The notes beneath the pieces were generated by a model that did no database searches, had not been told where the DNA came from, and worked only from the letters and a program-made list of their open reading frames with translations. A DNA stretch of 64,000 bases from Massilia frigida (GTDB lineage: Bacteria; Pseudomonadota; Gammaproteobacteria; Burkholderiales; Burkholderiaceae_D): contig NZ_WHJG01000001.1 of the NCBI RefSeq assembly GCF_011682175.1, positions 248,001-312,000 of the forward strand. The letters are read 5' to 3'. The position numbers and the translations under genes were made by a program. Positions 35,801-41,848 of the stretch are shown piece after piece; within the stretch, counting starts at the first letter, position 1, and each line of letters opens with the position of its first letter.

Positions 35801-36177
35801 TGGGTGCCATGGAAACCGGCTACCAGCGCGGCAAGATCCAGGAAGAGTCGATGCTGTACGAGCACCAGAAGCATGACGGCACGCTACCGATCATCGGCGT
35901 GAACACCTTCCGTAATCCGAAGGCGAACGACACGCCGCAAAAGATCGAACTGGCGCGGTCGACGGACGAGGAAAAGCAGTCGCAGTTGACGCGCCTGGAC
36001 GACTTCCATCGCCGCAACGCCGAGCAGGCGCCACAGGTGCTGGCGGCATTGCAGCAGGCAGCCATCGACAATGCGAACGTGTTCGAGAAGCTGATGGAAG
36101 CGGTGCGGGTTTGCTCGCTGGGGCAGATTACGACGGCGCTGTTCGAGGTGGGTGGGCAGTACAGAAGGAATATGTAA
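32890..36177 (+). CDS. icmF: Fused isobutyryl-CoA mutase IcmF
   Basis: This 1095-residue protein is the fused adenosylcobalamin enzyme IcmF, converting isobutyryl-CoA and n-butyryl-CoA. Domains in order: B12-binding (residues 20-160, [16 protein letters not shown] with the lower ligand His34), MeaB-like GTPase chaperone (about 200-420, P-loop [17 protein letters not shown]), a linker, and the mutase TIM-barrel from about residue 560 ([38 protein letters not shown]). The fusion carries its own G-protein for cofactor loading. It should link valine or butyrate metabolism to acyl-CoA pools. A perfect palindrome is centred 45 bp before the start codon. Confidence 0.96.
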
Positions 36178-36185
36178 GCCTGGGT

Positions 36186-36208
36186 CGTTTCTGCCATCGG
36201 CAGGAACG
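36186..36208 (+). terminator. Stem-loop after icmF
   Basis: CGTTTCTGCC pairs with GGCAGGAACG (one T-G pair) around ATC, 8 bp past the icmF stop. It also lies 11 bp beyond the end of the converging Thg1-like gene, and it matches the hairpin at 32734-32756 at 20 of 23 positions. Confidence 0.5.
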
Positions 36209-36218
36209 GCCCAAGTCA

Positions 36219-36974
36219 TCAGGGAAGCATACCTCGGACCAATTGAGCGTATGCTTCGCCTTCTGGCAAATAAATATCCGTTTTGATCGCGCGCTTGCTC
36301 GACACCACCTCACGCTGTTCTTTCGGGTTGTATCCGCGCTTCTCGTCGTCCACCCAGTAAAACGCGGTCCCGCGCAACTGCCACTTTGGCAGCGTGTAGA
36401 AATCGATGCCACGGCTGGCCAGCAGCGCCACTTTGTCCTCAAGGGTGCGGCCCTCGATCTGCGCCGCCGCAGCGCCCTTCGCCACGCCCTCTTTCCTCAG
36501 CATCCAGTAGCAGTGCGCGTTCAAGCCATTCCTGTGCGCGTCTTCATTACGCCAACGGAAATAATCGACAACGGTCTTGCGGTCCGGCAGCTCGCAAATC
36601 CGGCAATCGAAGGCCGCCAGCTCGCCCAGCATCAGGCTGAATTTGGCCGATGCCTCACCGGCCAGGATCGAGTTGTACTTGCGCACCTTTCGCCCGTAAG
36701 CATTGATGTCCAGGTCGAACAACAGCGAAATTTCATCGCTTTCGCTGTAACCGTATGTCACCTTGAAACCGCAGTTCATCAAGTGCCGCGTGGTGTCGGC
36801 CATCAGTTCGCGGAATCGCACGTCGAACGGCGCATTGAAGCTGACCTTCTCCTTGGTCAGCTTGGTAAAGCTGCGGCCATCGATGCGCGCCACCATGTAC
36901 ACGCCCTGCTCCACGCAGCGGTCGTTGGCGGTCTCGTAGACGCGCATCATCGCGTCAAGTTCGTCAAATTTCAT
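36219..36974 (-). CDS. Thg1-like protein (tRNA-His guanylyltransferase family)
   Basis: This 251-residue protein has the Thg1 catalytic core. MVARIDGRSFTKLTKEKVSF carries metal ligand Asp32, and VTYGYSESDEISLLF carries the second acidic cluster near Asp80. Thg1-like proteins add nucleotides in the 3'-5' direction to RNA 5' ends; bacterial members repair truncated tRNA 5' ends rather than adding the tRNA-His G-1. The start overlaps the upstream kinase gene by 11 bases, so both are made together. A two-gene kinase plus reverse polymerase unit fits RNA 5'-end repair: the kinase prepares the end, Thg1-like extends it (inference). Confidence 0.92.
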   Translation of the reverse strand: MKFDELDAMMRVYETANDRCVEQGVYMVARIDGRSFTKLTKEKVSFNAPFDVRFRELMADTTRHLMNCGFKVTYGYSESDEISLLFDLDINAYGRKVRKYNSILAGEASAKFSLMLGELAAFDCRICELPDRKTVVDYFRWRNEDAHRNGLNAHCYWMLRKEGVAKGAAAAQIEGRTLEDKVALLASRGIDFYTLPKWQLRGTAFYWVDDEKRGYNPKEQREVVSSKRAIKTDIYLPEGEAYAQLVRGMLP

Positions 36975-37407
36975 GCCACGCCTTTACAATGAATTGGTCG
37001 TCAATGATATCGACGTAGTGTATCTCGTCGAAGCCCTCCCCCATGGTGGGAAGTTCGATTCTCTTGTGCGTGTCGAAAATGCCGACGTCCGGAATCAGGG
37101 CGGCGCCGCTGCGGCCACGGTTCCAGGCGAGCGAGCGCTCCAGGTCAATCCGGAAGTAGACGCAGATGATCCTGAACTTGCTGCCCTTGAGAACATCGAT
37201 GTACTTCGCACGCACGTCCCGGGTGGGATTGGTGTTGTCGACCACGAAGGGCATGCCGGTTTCGAGGCAAATTTCAACCAGCTTTTTCTCGCGGTATTTG
37301 GTTTTCAGCAGGTCGTTGCTGATACGCAGATGCGTGTTGAAATAGTTGTTTTTGTAAAAGGTCGACTTGCCGCTGGCTTGCAGTCCGACAAAAATGATGG
37401 CTTCCAA
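36964..37407 (-). CDS. P-loop kinase, polynucleotide-kinase-like
   Basis: A TTG at 37407, preceded by AAGAGAAC, gives a 147-residue protein starting EAIIFVGLQASGKSTFYKNN after the initiator Met. This is a P-loop (residues 8-16) at the very N-terminus, as in AAA_33/polynucleotide kinase-like families; longer readings upstream run into the neighbouring gene. Further motifs are ISNDLLKTKYREKK, VVDNTNPTRDVRAKYI and YFRIDLERSLAWNRGR, the latter like the lid of small kinases. The substrate is unknown; partnership with Thg1-like suggests RNA. It starts 17 bp after the third membrane-family gene. Confidence 0.85.
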   Translation of the reverse strand: MEAIIFVGLQASGKSTFYKNNYFNTHLRISNDLLKTKYREKKLVEICLETGMPFVVDNTNPTRDVRAKYIDVLKGSKFRIICVYFRIDLERSLAWNRGRSGAALIPDVGIFDTHKRIELPTMGEGFDEIHYVDIIDDQFIVKAWHEI

Positions 37408-37424
37408 TTGTTCTCTTTCATGTT

Positions 37425-37973
37425 TCAGCGCGTTGGCAGCGAATCGAGGAAGGCGGCGCCAGCCCCTTTCAGCCGTGCTTCGGATCTGCTGACGTGCACC
37501 GCAGTTAGTACATGCCTGGCGAAGCTGCCGACAATGGCGGCGACCAGCCAAAAAAGACCAGCCATCGAACCGATCAGCAGGCTTTCCTCGATAACCGCGG
37601 CAACCAGCGTTGCGATGCCGAGCCCAAGAATGGCAAGCGAGATATGATTAATGCAAAGGCGCCGGCGCCGATGACGGTCACACAGGCCAATGGCCACCTT
37701 GGTGGACTCTTGCAACGCAGCGGCCATTACGATATGCACAATGAAGTTGATCGATATCAATGGGTCCCATGTAGGATCGTGGCAGGAAAACCTTTGTGGC
37801 TTGCCCATCTGCGCTGACGCATTGCACTTGACGCAGCGCGCAGGCAAAGATGCACCGGCAGGGACGACAAGCAGATTGCCATCGCGCCAACAGCCCGTTG
37901 CCGGGCTCATTGGAGCCTCCACTTGCGGCAAAGCGTAAGGGGTTGGGGAAGTCTCTTTCACAGCAGCTTTCAT
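37425..37973 (-). CDS. Membrane protein of a tandem CxxC/CxxH family, copy 3
   Basis: From the ATG at 37973 this is a 182-residue protein. It shares with its two upstream neighbours: a Pro/Ala-rich start (SPTPYALPQVEAP), a GCWRDGNLLVVP strand, ARCVKCNASA (CxxC), GLCDRHRRRR (CxxH, followed by basic residues), hydrophobic segments near residues 65-85, 105-125 and 130-155, and the C-terminal KGAGAAFLDSLPTR. It is the most divergent copy, with the central block around CHDPTWDPLISINF changed. The CxxC and CxxH pairs could bind one zinc ion at the membrane face (inference). The family function is unknown to me. Confidence 0.75.
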   Translation of the reverse strand: MKAAVKETSPTPYALPQVEAPMSPATGCWRDGNLLVVPAGASLPARCVKCNASAQMGKPQRFSCHDPTWDPLISINFIVHIVMAAALQESTKVAIGLCDRHRRRRLCINHISLAILGLGIATLVAAVIEESLLIGSMAGLFWLVAAIVGSFARHVLTAVHVSRSEARLKGAGAAFLDSLPTR

Positions 37974-38062
37974 GCAACGCTTCAACTTGCGATATTACTC
38001 GAGAAATATACCAGCGAAGCTTGAACTTGCTGCCTATAAAAATCGATAGTCCTCTTGCTGCG

Positions 38063-38614
38063 TCAGTACTCCGGTAGCGAATCCAGAAAGGCTGAACCGC
38101 ATCCTTTCAAGCGGATTTCATGCTCCGTAATGCGCACCGGTTGCAGCAGGCGTGGGCCGGTAACAGCAAGCACGGTGCTAATCAACAGCAACACACCTGC
38201 GGGGAATGCCAGCCAGAGCTTGCTCAGTCCAAAAGCGCCAAACAAAGCGATCATGCCGAGCGCGCCGAGGACATGCGCGCCAACGGAACTATTGCGGCGC
38301 CGGCGGCGATGCTCATCGCACAGGCCCAACACAACGACCGCCCTTTTCCTAACGAAAAGGCACACCACCATATATACAACTAGTGGAATCAAGGCATACC
38401 AGCCGGGATGGTGCCACATAAAGGCGCGCGGACTGTCCATCGTGGCCGGCTTGTTGCACTTGACACAGCGCGGCGGCAAATGGGCGGGCACGGAAGCGAT
38501 CAGGATGTTTCCCTCACGCCAGCATGGTCCTTCTTCAAGCGGGTTTTGTGCGCTGAAGATGGGCTCGAAAGATGCTTTTGGCGCTTCGTAGGGGTTGGAA
38601 AGGATCGGTGTCAC
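38063..38614 (-). CDS. Membrane protein of a tandem CxxC/CxxH family, copy 2
   Basis: I chose the GTG at 38614 because its codon and the following TPI-NPY-AP text match copy 1, and CCGAGAAC lies before it; a TTG at 38644 is the alternative. About 183 residues: NPYEAPKASF, CWREGNILIAS, PPRCVKCNKPA, TM around GWYALIPLVVYMVVCLF, GLCDEHRRRRR, two more hydrophobic segments, and C-terminal EIRLKGCGSAFLDSLPEY. It is very similar to copy 1 (same spacing of all motifs), showing recent tandem duplication. Its gap to copy 1 is only 37 bp, so they are probably co-transcribed. Confidence 0.75.
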   Translation of the reverse strand: MTPILSNPYEAPKASFEPIFSAQNPLEEGPCWREGNILIASVPAHLPPRCVKCNKPATMDSPRAFMWHHPGWYALIPLVVYMVVCLFVRKRAVVVLGLCDEHRRRRRNSSVGAHVLGALGMIALFGAFGLSKLWLAFPAGVLLLISTVLAVTGPRLLQPVRITEHEIRLKGCGSAFLDSLPEY

Positions 38615-38651
38615 GACGTTCTCGGAGAATCGTTGAGGAGGCAATGTGAAC

Positions 38652-39185
38652 TCAGCGTTCGGGAAGCGAGTCGAGAAAGGCGGGGCCGCAGCCTTTCAAG
38701 CGGATTTCGTGCTGGGTGATGCTGACCACACGCAAGGTACGCTGACCGCCGATGGCAAGCAAGAGGCCGCCCAGCATGAGCAGGCAAGCAAGCCATCCCA
38801 GCAAAGGATTGACGCTCCCGGTCGCGTTGAACAGCGCGACGATGCCGAGCGCGAAAAGGCCATACGCGGCCAGCGACACATTGCGGCGGCGGCGGCGGTG
38901 TTCGTCGCACAGGCCAATCACGAGGGTCGCCCTTTTTCGGACAAACATGCTGGCCGTGATGTACACCAGTATCGGAATCAGCAGATACCAGCCTGGATGA
39001 TGCCAGGAAAAGGAACGCGGCTTGTCCATGATCGCCGACTTGTTGCACTTGACGCAGCGCGGCGGCAGGTGCTCGCGTCTGGACGCGACCAGGATGCCGC
39101 CATCGCGCCAGCATCGGTTGGTCGCCACGCCGTCATTGAAGGAAGCCTTCGGCGCAGCATACGGGTTGGGGGACATCGGTGTCAC
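38652..39185 (-). CDS. Membrane protein of a tandem CxxC/CxxH family, copy 1
   Basis: The GTG at 39185 has GGAG 6 bases upstream; an ATG at 39176 and a TTG at 39215 are alternatives. The 177-residue product reads NPYAAPKASF, CWRDGGILVAS, PPRCVKCNKSA, a first TM (GWYLLIPILVYITASMF), GLCDEHRRRRRN, a second and third TM, and EIRLKGCGPAFLDSLPER. It is the first gene downstream of the reverse transcriptase on the same strand, 80 bp away. If the reverse transcriptase is a retron, membrane proteins at this position would be effector candidates, as with the two-TM effector of retron Ec48 (known), but that is only inference here. Confidence 0.75.
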   Translation of the reverse strand: MTPMSPNPYAAPKASFNDGVATNRCWRDGGILVASRREHLPPRCVKCNKSAIMDKPRSFSWHHPGWYLLIPILVYITASMFVRKRATLVIGLCDEHRRRRRNVSLAAYGLFALGIVALFNATGSVNPLLGWLACLLMLGGLLLAIGGQRTLRVVSITQHEIRLKGCGPAFLDSLPER

Positions 39186-39265
39186 TACGCACTCCGGGAA
39201 CGGTTGAGAATGCAATTTTAGTCAGGCCAAGTGACTATAGGAAACTATTTTGCTTGCCGCTGTTG

Positions 39266-40600
39266 TTATCCGGGCGGCCAGGCGATGGCCTCGAACAGGC
39301 GCTGCAGACGCTGTCCGCGCTGGGGATTGACCATTGTCACATAAGCGACCTTGCCCGCGAGGTAAGCGCGAAAGTCAGGGCGATGGTCGCGGTTCTGCGC
39401 CTGCGGCCCGTGGCGGGCGCAGTTGGTTAGCGTGGCCTTGAGCAGATCGAATTCGGTACGCGCGATGTTGGGATGGCGGTTGACGACGATGCCGGTGACC
39501 TGTTGACGGGTCCCGGCGCGCATCAGGCGCGTCTTGCGCGTGTTGATGGCAAAGCCTTCTTCGATGGCGATGGCGCCCACTTGCGCGTGGAAACTCTCCA
39601 TGGCGCGTTCCAGTTCGCGCGCGCCGGAGAATACCAGATCGTCCGCGTAGCGGCTGTAGCGCGCGCCGAGCGATTGCGCCAGGGCGTCGAGGCGCACATC
39701 GAGCCGCCAGGCGCAGGCGTTGGCCAGTGCCGGCGAACAGGGCGAACCTTGCGGCAGGTGCGGCGCGCGCAGTGCCTGGCGCCGGGTCCAGGTGAGTGCG
39801 TCGTCGCCGGCGGGTGTGCGCAGCACGCCGGCCGGCACGCGGTTGACGCACAGGCGCGCCAGCACGCGCGCCACGGTCTGGGAATACCCCAGCTTCGCAA
39901 ACAGCGCATGAATGCGCGAGGCCGGAATGCTGGAGAAAAAATCCTTGAGGTCCATGCGGATCACCACCCGCTGTCCGCTGTGCAGGGCCGCATGGGTGAC
40001 GCAGGAATGCCCGCGCCGGAAGCCATGTGCGGCGGGATGCGCAGGCACGCGGTCGAGCAGTTCGCGCAAGATGGTGGCCTGCATGGCGCGCAGGCGCGGC
40101 TTGGGGATTTCGATCAGACGCACGCCGCCGCTGCGCTTGGGCACCCAGCGGTAGTGGTAGTGCTCCAGTTGCGCGTCCGGCATGGGTTCGCGGCGCCACT
40201 GGTCGGCGAACCACCCAAGTTCGTCGGGGCGCAGCCGCAGCCAGTGCGCCAGGTCGCCCACGGAGGGCAGCGGCGGCAGCGCGAGCACGGCCAGCCAGTC
40301 GGGGGGCGGCGGGACCAGCGGCAGGTCGAGGCAGTAATGCTTGATGTGCGGCGCCGGTCCCTCGCCCTCCCACGCCTCGTGAAACTCCTCCAGCTCAAAA
40401 ATGATCTGCGCCAGTTCATCGCGGCTGAAATAGTAAAAGTGTTCGGCGGTGCGCGCGTGGATTTGCTCGCACAGCGCCGGTATCCATGGCCACGGATGGC
40501 CCAACGCCCACGTCGCGCTGGCGATCAAGCCGGCGAGGGTTGCGTCGCGCGCCAGCATGGTGTCGGCGAGCGCCAGGGCGACGGCGTCTTTGGGAATCAT
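39266..40600 (-). CDS. Retron-type reverse transcriptase
   Basis: This 444-residue reverse transcriptase has all core motifs: domain start YRWVPKRSGGVRLIEIPKP (about 150-168), DLKDFFSSI (217-225), LPQGSPCSP (282-290), catalytic YADD (318-321), and the GFAINTRKTRLM block. Two features point to retrons: HAALH (203-207) in place of the retron NAxxH, and VTGIVVN (368-374), matching the retron VTG motif that contacts the msr RNA. There is no maturase or endonuclease domain (so not a group II intron protein). The first 145 residues form an N-terminal extension with no recognised domain. The ncRNA that its start codon follows is described separately. Confidence 0.9.
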   Translation of the reverse strand: MIPKDAVALALADTMLARDATLAGLIASATWALGHPWPWIPALCEQIHARTAEHFYYFSRDELAQIIFELEEFHEAWEGEGPAPHIKHYCLDLPLVPPPPDWLAVLALPPLPSVGDLAHWLRLRPDELGWFADQWRREPMPDAQLEHYHYRWVPKRSGGVRLIEIPKPRLRAMQATILRELLDRVPAHPAAHGFRRGHSCVTHAALHSGQRVVIRMDLKDFFSSIPASRIHALFAKLGYSQTVARVLARLCVNRVPAGVLRTPAGDDALTWTRRQALRAPHLPQGSPCSPALANACAWRLDVRLDALAQSLGARYSRYADDLVFSGARELERAMESFHAQVGAIAIEEGFAINTRKTRLMRAGTRQQVTGIVVNRHPNIARTEFDLLKATLTNCARHGPQAQNRDHRPDFRAYLAGKVAYVTMVNPQRGQRLQRLFEAIAWPPG

Positions 40601-40619
40601 GGGTTGTCAGCTTTAAGGG

Positions 40620-40783
40620 GGGCGGAGAGCCTTCAACCAGTCTGGTGAAGCTTGAGTTGTGGTGCGCGTCAGCGCACCGGCACTCATGCGGTGAATTGCA
40701 CAGCAATGAATATCCCACGGGGTAGCCCCGTAGAGGCTTGTCCCTGCACGAGGCAAGAACACGCCGGCTTGAAGGATCCGCCC
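40620..40783 (-). ncRNA. Candidate retron msr-msd RNA
   Basis: Just upstream of the reverse transcriptase an inverted repeat flanks about 130 nt. On the minus strand a1 (40783-40769) reads GGGCGGATCCTTCAA, and a2 (40636-40620) reads TTGAAGGCTCTCCGCCC, so GGGCGGA and CTTCAA pair exactly with a small internal bulge. The base after a1 is the G of AGC at 40768, the expected branching guanosine. Between the arms are hairpins: ACGGGG-CTA-CCCCGT (40731-40717), ATTGC-TGT-GCAAT (40707-40695), and a perfect 7-bp stem around TGAC (40678-40661), which could be the msd hairpin. The RNA ends about 20 nt before the reverse transcriptase start, the usual retron order. Confidence 0.75.
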
Positions 40784-40789
40784 GCGTAG

Positions 40790-40818
40790 AGAGTAAGACA
40801 ATTTTGCATGAACGTCAA
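40790..40818 (-). promoter_or_regulatory. Predicted promoter of the retron RNA
   Basis: TTGACG (40818-40813) and TACTCT (40795-40790) are spaced by 17 bp on the minus strand. The transcript would start near 40783, which is exactly where a1 begins. The -10 box is a poor match. Confidence 0.45.
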
Positions 40819-40837
40819 TGCGGCTGCCGCACCGCTA

Positions 40838-41848
40838 TCAGCCGATGCAGCGCCCGACAGTGGCACCGGGCAGCAGCACCGGCTGCCACAAGACCTGCAA
40901 CTGCGCCGGCGGCATGCCCGCCACCAGCGCCGACAGCATTTCGGTCATCTTGGCGCCGGCCTCGTTGGGGCCCGGCTGGTCGATGGTGGTGACGTTCGAT
41001 CCCACCAGACTGTCCTCGATGCTGCCCCAGACGATGACGGACATGTCCTTGCCGATCTCGATGCCGGCATCAAGCAGCGCGCGCACCGCGCCCACGCCGG
41101 AGAGGTGATTGTCGACGATGACGGCGGTCGGGCGCGGCGAGCGGGCCAGCAGCTCCTGCATGGCCTGATAACCGGTGCGGCGGTCGAGCGTATTGTCGAC
41201 CAGGTGACGCGGATCGACGGCCAGTCCCGCCGCCTGCATGCAGGCGATGAAGCTGTTCTTGCGCTGGCACGCGAAATTGAGTTCGAGCGGCGCGCTCACC
41301 AGCGCGATGCGGCTGTGGCCATGTTCAATCAGGTGCGCGCACGCCAGCCCGATGCCGGCCTCGTTGTCGTAGTCGAACCAGGCGTATGGCTGCTTGAGTT
41401 CCGTGCGGCCGTGCGCCACGAACGGAAAACCCTTCTTCACCAGATAGGCAATGCGCTCGTCGTGGACCAGCGTGCGGCTGACCACCAGGCCATCGACGCG
41501 GCGCCCGCGCACCATCTGCTCGTACGACGGCAGTTCGTTTTGCGGCGACACCGGCGCGATGATCAGGTTCATCTTGCTCTTTTCAAGCGCGGCCGACATG
41601 CCGCCCACCACGCCCAAAAACATCGGGTCACCCAGGTCGCTCGGCAGCAGCGGATAGATGATGCCGAAGACATTGGTGCGCCCCACCGCCAGGCTGCGCG
41701 CCATCGGATTGGCTTCGTAGCCGGCTTCCTTGGCGGCGGCCAGCACGCGCTCGCGCGTGTGCACATTGACTTCGGGGTAGCCGTTCAGGGCACGGCTGAC
41801 GGTGGTCTTTGAAATCCCGAGCGTACGGGCCAGGCTCTTGAGATTCAT
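40838..41848 (-). CDS. LacI-family regulator of the disaccharide operon
   Basis: This 336-residue regulator has the N-terminal helix-turn-helix (SLARTLGISKTTVSRALNGYPEVN, residues 4-27) and a sugar-binding periplasmic-type domain (NVFGIIYPLLPSDLGDPMFL, then DGLVVSRT). It resembles AglR-type regulators of alpha-glucoside use. It is the last gene of the operon GH65 phosphorylase-pgmB-MFS transporter-regulator and probably represses the operon promoter at 46231-46260 through the CAAACCGGTTTG palindromes (inference). Confidence 0.92.
   Translation of the reverse strand: MNLKSLARTLGISKTTVSRALNGYPEVNVHTRERVLAAAKEAGYEANPMARSLAVGRTNVFGIIYPLLPSDLGDPMFLGVVGGMSAALEKSKMNLIIAPVSPQNELPSYEQMVRGRRVDGLVVSRTLVHDERIAYLVKKGFPFVAHGRTELKQPYAWFDYDNEAGIGLACAHLIEHGHSRIALVSAPLELNFACQRKNSFIACMQAAGLAVDPRHLVDNTLDRRTGYQAMQELLARSPRPTAVIVDNHLSGVGAVRALLDAGIEIGKDMSVIVWGSIEDSLVGSNVTTIDQPGPNEAGAKMTEMLSALVAGMPPAQLQVLWQPVLLPGATVGRCIG

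Follow-up and report, generated by a model that had tools for sequence, protein, structure and literature searches.

The locus described here appears to be a genuine retron, from an untyped lineage that neighbours type XIII. It lies in a window of 64,000 nt from Massilia frigida (GCF_011682175.1, contig NZ_WHJG01000001.1, positions 248,001 to 312,000 of the forward strand). On the sequence evidence we put the probability of this identification at about 0.92, a value that refers to retron identity and not to function. The retron looks like an orphan, and the kind of system is not new. A family-wide effector gene was looked for beside it and not found, and an effector may lie elsewhere in the genome. 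The features are listed in Table 1; the branch point and the msd ends are predicted by retron convention.

Table 1. Features of the retron locus and its downstream neighbours (window coordinates).
Feature	Position	Strand	Basis
Promoter-like element	40790-40818	minus	-35 TTGACG (40813-40818), 17-nt spacer, -10 TACTCT (40790-40795); read directly
msr-msd ncRNA (model span)	40618-40784	minus	cmsearch 179.3 bits, window within training set; fold z-score; covariation
a1, 5' arm of outer stem	40769-40783	minus	pairs with 40620-40636
a2, 3' arm of outer stem	40620-40636	minus	read back exactly; fold; covariation
Predicted branching G (AAGC)	40768	minus	invariant in 38 aligned ncRNAs; chemistry inferred
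msr region, two stem-loops (40735-40765, 40714-40734)	40714-40767	minus	fold; covariation
Predicted msd template	40637-40700	minus	retron convention; 3' edge from a2, 5' edge about 40697-40712
msd hairpin GCATGAG...CTCAAGC, inner hairpin 40661-40678	40650-40689	minus	fold; covariation
Retron reverse transcriptase (RT)	39266-40600	minus	ORF, 444 aa
N-terminal helical domain, residues 1-100, five main helices	40301-40600	minus	AlphaFold2
Three tandem paralogues, small protein, two apparent membrane helices	38652-39215, 38063-38644, 37425-37985	minus	helices by eye

A covarying RNA upstream of the reverse transcriptase

The RT ORF is separated from an upstream lacI-type gene (low end 40838) by a gap of 237 bp (40601-40837). 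The original prediction had placed in this gap an inverted repeat with an AGC immediately after a1 and internal hairpins. Both arms were read back exactly and the AGC was present where claimed, the role of its G in branching being a prediction. Pairing of a1 with a2 was interrupted only by a 1x3 internal loop. When 40601-40800 of the minus strand was folded, the minimum free energy was -85.4 kcal/mol; shuffled sequences averaged -63.0 (sd 4.1, z -5.5), and none of 200 folded as low. In the predicted fold a1 pairs with a2 and encloses two msr stem-loops and the long msd hairpin.

Conservation of this fold was examined in homologous regions. A search of 196 relatives, the window's own genome included, turned up 16 genomes with a window-type RT (E below 1e-90). 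Upstream regions of 14 of these 16 family loci aligned over the entire RNA; the two left out were L005, with no RNA beside the RT, and the broken L016. Changes on both sides that kept the pair were found in 19 of 44 predicted pairs in the 14 sequences, and 98.8% and 99.0% of cells were paired in the two parts of the outer stem. In a second alignment, of 38 ncRNAs chosen by us, such changes affected 21 of 34 pairs. None of 500 shuffles scored as high. In the main helices of the two msr stem-loops 4 of 5 and 5 of 9 pairs were changed in this way in the 38 sequences, and the internal hairpins are backed by covariation. Paired cells made up 95.8% in the 38 sequences versus 86.8% when shuffled and 36-50% with partners slid, the slide control favouring the ncRNA structure because the structure came from the same alignment. 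C40771, A40770 and A40769 at the end of a1 and the predicted branching G40768 were invariant in all 38. The results indicate that a covarying fold is common to the homologous upstream regions; its absence had been named as an outcome that would speak against a retron.

A Rfam 15 search of the region gave no match at gathering scores and merely chance matches at E ≤ 10. Titles and the beginnings of abstracts held no description of the ncRNA, which does not establish its absence from print. Covariance models for msr-msd RNAs are distributed with PADLOC, according to a passage of PMC9252829.

A promoter placed to start transcription at a1 had also been claimed. The promoter-like element of Table 1 was found at that place and read directly, with a 17-nt spacer that recurs in 26 of the 32 relatives bearing the motif. 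For this comparison the motif was defined as TTGACN, 16 to 19 nt and TAnnnT no more than 60 nt upstream of the ncRNA, and we used 58 loci of our own choice with an RNA match, six of them from near-identical Massilia. It was found in 32 of the 58 loci versus 0.19% of mononucleotide shuffles. The 26 loci without the strict motif comprised seven from Oxalobacteraceae, six of which have TTGATT or TTGC at -35; most of the others are from Acidobacteria and Planctomycetes. A strict sigma-70 scan of the window called no promoter.

The RNA extends well beyond close relatives. In a one-per-species genome scan the best 80 of 584 related loci were used, and the covariance model matched on the RT strand in 77 of them, in keeping with the expectation of homologous ncRNAs upstream of related RTs. 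The model had been built from 32 of the 80 loci; among the other 48 it matched in 45. The three loci without a match at E ≤ 0.01 were L061 and L092, whose contigs leave under 100 nt ahead of the RT match, and L101, where the match reaches E 0.19 only. At L080 the match was weak (31 bits) and overlaps the start of the RT match.

Hosts of these best 80 loci belong to Burkholderiales, Acidobacteriota, Planctomycetota, Myxococcota and others, and include Massilia, Duganella, Rugamonas, Collimonas, Undibacterium, Burkholderia, Rhizobacter, Hahella, Acidobacteria, Planctomycetes and Pyxidicoccus. On viral contigs none of the best 80 of 197 matches started before query residue 90, and none of 36 phage records listed held a full-length member. 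Three of 323 plasmid records listed covered at least 80% of the query, all of them Burkholderia replicons of 0.88-1.26 Mb; a flank search of the Burkholderia replicons gave no clean empty site.

Several copies were seen to be damaged. The RT copy at L011 has an internal TGA. In the Massilia glaciei copy (L016/L116) the RT is missing its 5' part, so that the ncRNA continues in part directly into the RT core, and the RNA match of L116 sits on this truncated RT. In G007, inferred to be M. rubra, an insertion with apparent terminal inverted repeats (L062, 2675-6000) parts the ncRNA from the RT, so that the RNA match lies 3.3 kb away; by eye the insertion carries a P-type ATPase gene.

The reverse transcriptase among known retrons

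The motifs YADD, VTG and HAALH were found in the RT as predicted, at residues 318-321, 368-370 and 203-207, respectively. YADD was present in 64 of 65 aligned family RTs, and the VTG block varied among them (e.g. LAG). In region X the window RT reads HAALH in place of NAxxH. None of the 65 RTs has the N, which is replaced by H or F (Y in two), and H207 was kept in all 65. NAxxH is usual but not defining: according to passages of PMC6868368, it is found in 14 of 16 validated retrons and lacking in Ec48 and Mx65. Outside the alignment, NAxxH was seen by eye in five relatives, mostly Planctomycetes (L085, L086, L100, L108 and L111).

In PADLOC the window RT scored 487 bits with RT_other, 458 with RT_outgroup and 335 with RT_XIII, and each of the three models was matched by all 65 aligned members at E ≤ 1e-30. 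RT_other and RT_outgroup are model labels only. Both match the window RT over nearly its full length, N-terminal domain included; the lineage is therefore already among the retron RTs without a numbered type, and is already represented in PADLOC. With NCBIfam models the RT gave 189 bits for retron St85, below the cut-off of 235, and 63 bits for group II. The top matches of a PDB sequence search were Ec86 and Ec67. The AlphaFold2 model of the RT (pLDDT 91.1) had Ec86 as its best Foldseek match, with E 1.1e-20 and 25% identity over the structural alignment. The best fold matches were the retrons Ec86, Ec67, Eco7 and Ec78; group II RTs followed from rank 19 and the first DGR RT stood at rank 23.

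A maximum-likelihood tree was constructed from 36 RTs, among them 15 chosen family members and four group II-like RTs, so labelled from their low family scores and the reading of one sequence. The 15 members and two unlabelled RTs (L017 and L133) formed one clade with 100/100 support, and the group II-like RTs were split from it with the same support. Type XIII RTs adjoined the clade with weak support (83/61). PADLOC, the PDB search, the fold search and the tree all side with retron RTs. A grouping with group II introns or DGRs, which had been named as evidence to the contrary, was not found, judging group II by the tree, which held no DGR RTs, and DGRs by fold rank only.

Type XIII, which includes Mx65 and Mx162, is the nearest typed clade, by profile and weakly by tree. 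Like the window RT, its members are retron RTs with an N-terminal extension, and the Mx65 RT likewise has no N in the NAxxH position, according to passages of PMC6868368. However, the window RT is not of this type: it prefers RT_other to RT_XIII, and neither SWIM nor WGR/HEAT genes stand beside the RT at any of the 80 family loci (best 80 of 584).

The distinction could be followed in a Myxococcus genome (G252, inferred to be Myxococcus xanthus DSM 16526). We take its 485-aa RT, by its length, to be Mx162; RT_XIII is the best model for this RT (510 bits). The Mx65 RT has been assigned to FNOH01000027.1, 37959-39242, in Table 2 of PMC8934634. At these positions contig 27 of G252 has a 427-aa RT, also best to RT_XIII (435 bits). 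A full-length Myxococcus homologue of the window RT was rejected as a candidate for Mx65, since the published coordinates fit another RT of the same genome. The RNA model of the window's family found nothing convincing near Mx65 or the presumed Mx162 (best 11.6 and 9.5 bits). Besides these two, G252 has a third retron-like locus (L130; L146 4444-4610). The tree places it in the family of the window (98/94 with Pyxidicoccus), and so does the RNA model with 54.5 bits. Its RT is 39% identical to the window RT. The literature passages searched held no description of this third RT.

The locus had been said to be built like Ec86 (Eco1). Its general msr-msd layout is like that of Ec86, and the RT folds are alike. 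The comparison is a loose one: the nearest typed retrons are those of type XIII, and Ec86 has a separate effector (title of PDB 7v9x), whereas none common to the present family was found.

Neighbouring genes and the search for an effector

Genes linked to the retron were compared across the best 80 of 584 loci by clustering ORFs of at least 70 aa, up to 6 kb on each side, at E ≤ 1e-6. The main RT cluster covered 61 loci; elsewhere the crude choice of ORFs picked antisense frames. Other clusters found in at least 4 of the 80 loci were judged by their distribution to be lineage synteny or antisense frames. A downstream test with ORFs of at least 35 aa within 2.5 kb of the RT covered 75 of these loci (L065, L080, L092, L098 and L116 left out) and gave no family-wide neighbour. 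In Burkholderia the downstream genes were an H-NS-like one, named from an annotated record, and one for an MFS transporter; in the Rhizobacter group the gene was ubiA, this name and that of the transporter being our reading. PADLOC had no match for five downstream genes of the window. No dedicated effector gene was thus found among the linked genes; one is not required of every retron.

Lone retron RTs have been published before. Passages of PMC12548924 describe Retron-Bth1, and Retron-Sda1 without the usual type III genes, as an RT and ncRNA with no obvious or usual effector, and the effectorless state as such is therefore not new. These are single cases, one of them split by a group II intron, according to the same passages.

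The effector could be the N-terminal domain of the RT itself, making a fused, single-protein system; we consider this unlikely, though the best of the alternatives. Residues 1-112 modelled alone by AlphaFold2 gave five main helices with pLDDT 90.7 and pTM 0.80. The domain is thus confidently predicted and was present in most members inspected, and a fused RT-effector retron is known in Eco2/Ec67 (PMC12405507). However, a PDB fold search with the domain gave no match at E ≤ 0.001, and Pfam no family below E 0.1 for residues 1-100. The tblastn match began only after residue 60 in 15 of the best 80 of 584 loci. Three of these (L061, L092 and L116) are explained by contig ends or truncation. Ten were inspected, L102 and L117 being left out: the N-terminus was diverged but of similar length in seven, the RT stood so close behind the RNA in L086 and L114 that there was no room for the domain, and in L118 the domain was missing in frame. 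The domain is usual in the family and not obligatory, and its being dispensable in some members weakens an effector role. Type XIII RTs, too, carry N-terminal extensions despite having separate partners.

In the window and in six Massilia genomes with the same locus, a lacI-type gene (Pfam) is followed by the retron and then by one to three small membrane-protein genes. Behind these lie an AAA-type kinase gene and a Thg1-like gene (Pfam); in G012 neither of the two was detected. The far end is marked by icmF (our naming) on the opposite strand, with extra membrane-gene copies adjoining it in three of the same-locus genomes. In G011 and G006 icmF lies within about 140 nt after lacI, which indicates that the retron sits in a variable islet (window 36177-40838) bounded by these two conserved genes. 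The Thg1-like gene of the window (36222-36974; Pfam Thg1, 102 bits) lies beside the AAA-type kinase gene of this islet.

A tripartite retron in Massilia, with the small membrane protein as its toxic effector, seems to us rather improbable. Membrane effectors serve some retrons, such as Ec48, and the gene was found downstream of the RT in all seven same-locus Massilia genomes examined; in M. atriviolacea a few bases of it overlap the RT stop (offset -4). However, it lies near the RT at just 4 of the 80 family loci (best 80 of 584), all Massilia. It begins about 0.7 kb past the RT in G016, homologues without a linked RT occur in G005 and G006, and copies are found elsewhere in the islet too. PADLOC found nothing in the three window copies. 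The paralogues at 37425-39215 are a lineage-specific neighbour and probably do not belong to the retron.

A type XIII retron is also present elsewhere in the window's own genome, on a different contig (L031 and L032, 5637-12719), with its RT beside SWIM and WGR genes. These genes are 98% and 95% identical to those of the congener G009, where PADLOC gave 621, 760 and 1107 bits to type XIII models (SWIM 760, WGR 1107). By tblastn, SWIM and WGR homologues were also found beside a type XIII RT in G007, G012, G014, G016, G081 and G147; for G009 PADLOC was used.

It is conceivable, but quite improbable, that the window RT serves effectors in trans, namely those of this type XIII operon (RT, SWIM and WGR/HEAT). 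A type XIII-like RT was found in at least 8 of the 16 genomes with a window-type RT (E below 1e-90) versus 2 of 180 without; up to 8 candidates were scored per genome, and the count is therefore a lower bound. SWIM and WGR adjoin the type XIII RT in the window's own genome and in five further family-bearing genomes, and type XIII is the nearest typed clade, at the tree support given above. Against this, the other 8 of the 16 genomes showed no type XIII-like RT, 7 of the 8 positives come from a single genus and are therefore not independent, and the family loci have no SWIM or WGR gene nearby.

That the window retron is a decaying remnant is very improbable. The broken relatives (L011, L016/L116 and L062) would fit such a history, but the dN/dS of the RT was 0.16-0.20 in six comparisons within Massilia, values that point to purifying selection on the window RT, and YADD, the arms and the promoter motif are kept. 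Least probable of all, the RT would come from a group II intron, a DGR or another non-retron class and stand beside an incidental inverted repeat; its low-scoring matches to models of group II and DRT lend this reading little against the far stronger retron models, the well-supported tree split and a covarying RNA in the same position in relatives.

Proposed mode of action and significance

We thus return to a retron with its own msr-msd RNA. The sequence shows the promoter-like element followed by the conserved structured RNA of ~167 nt directly upstream of the RT on the same strand. By analogy with retron biology, the RT would bind the msr-msd RNA, prime from the 2'-OH of G40768 where a1 meets a2, and copy the msd hairpin between roughly 40637 and 40700. 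The product would be a branched RNA-DNA remaining on the RT, and the msDNA expected from the predicted template would measure about 60-76 nt. The retron looks like a two-component unit of RNA and RT, with no family-wide dedicated effector gene; in most members inspected the RT carries the helical domain at its N-terminus. Its likeliest role would be in phage sensing or another stress response, and we guess that either the RT complex or some protein of the host might act as the output.

Retrons of known function typically join RT and RNA with a toxic effector, according to the abstract of PMC12548924. Our tentative proposal, held at somewhat less than even odds, is that the present family is a phylum-crossing retron lineage without a dedicated effector gene. 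The conserved msr-msd and RT would then form a complete two-component chromosomal unit, acting through the RT complex with its N-terminal domain or through a host function, outside the toxin-release logic of typed retrons. The Myxococcus genome G252 would carry such a two-component unit as its third retron, besides the classical Mx65 and Mx162.

The alignment offers a means to annotate an ncRNA that has no entry in Rfam 15. It may be speculated that RTs of the family might serve as a means to make single-stranded DNA in Burkholderiales. With a deeply conserved RNA and no linked effector found across at least four phyla, the family would open the role of effectorless retrons to direct testing.
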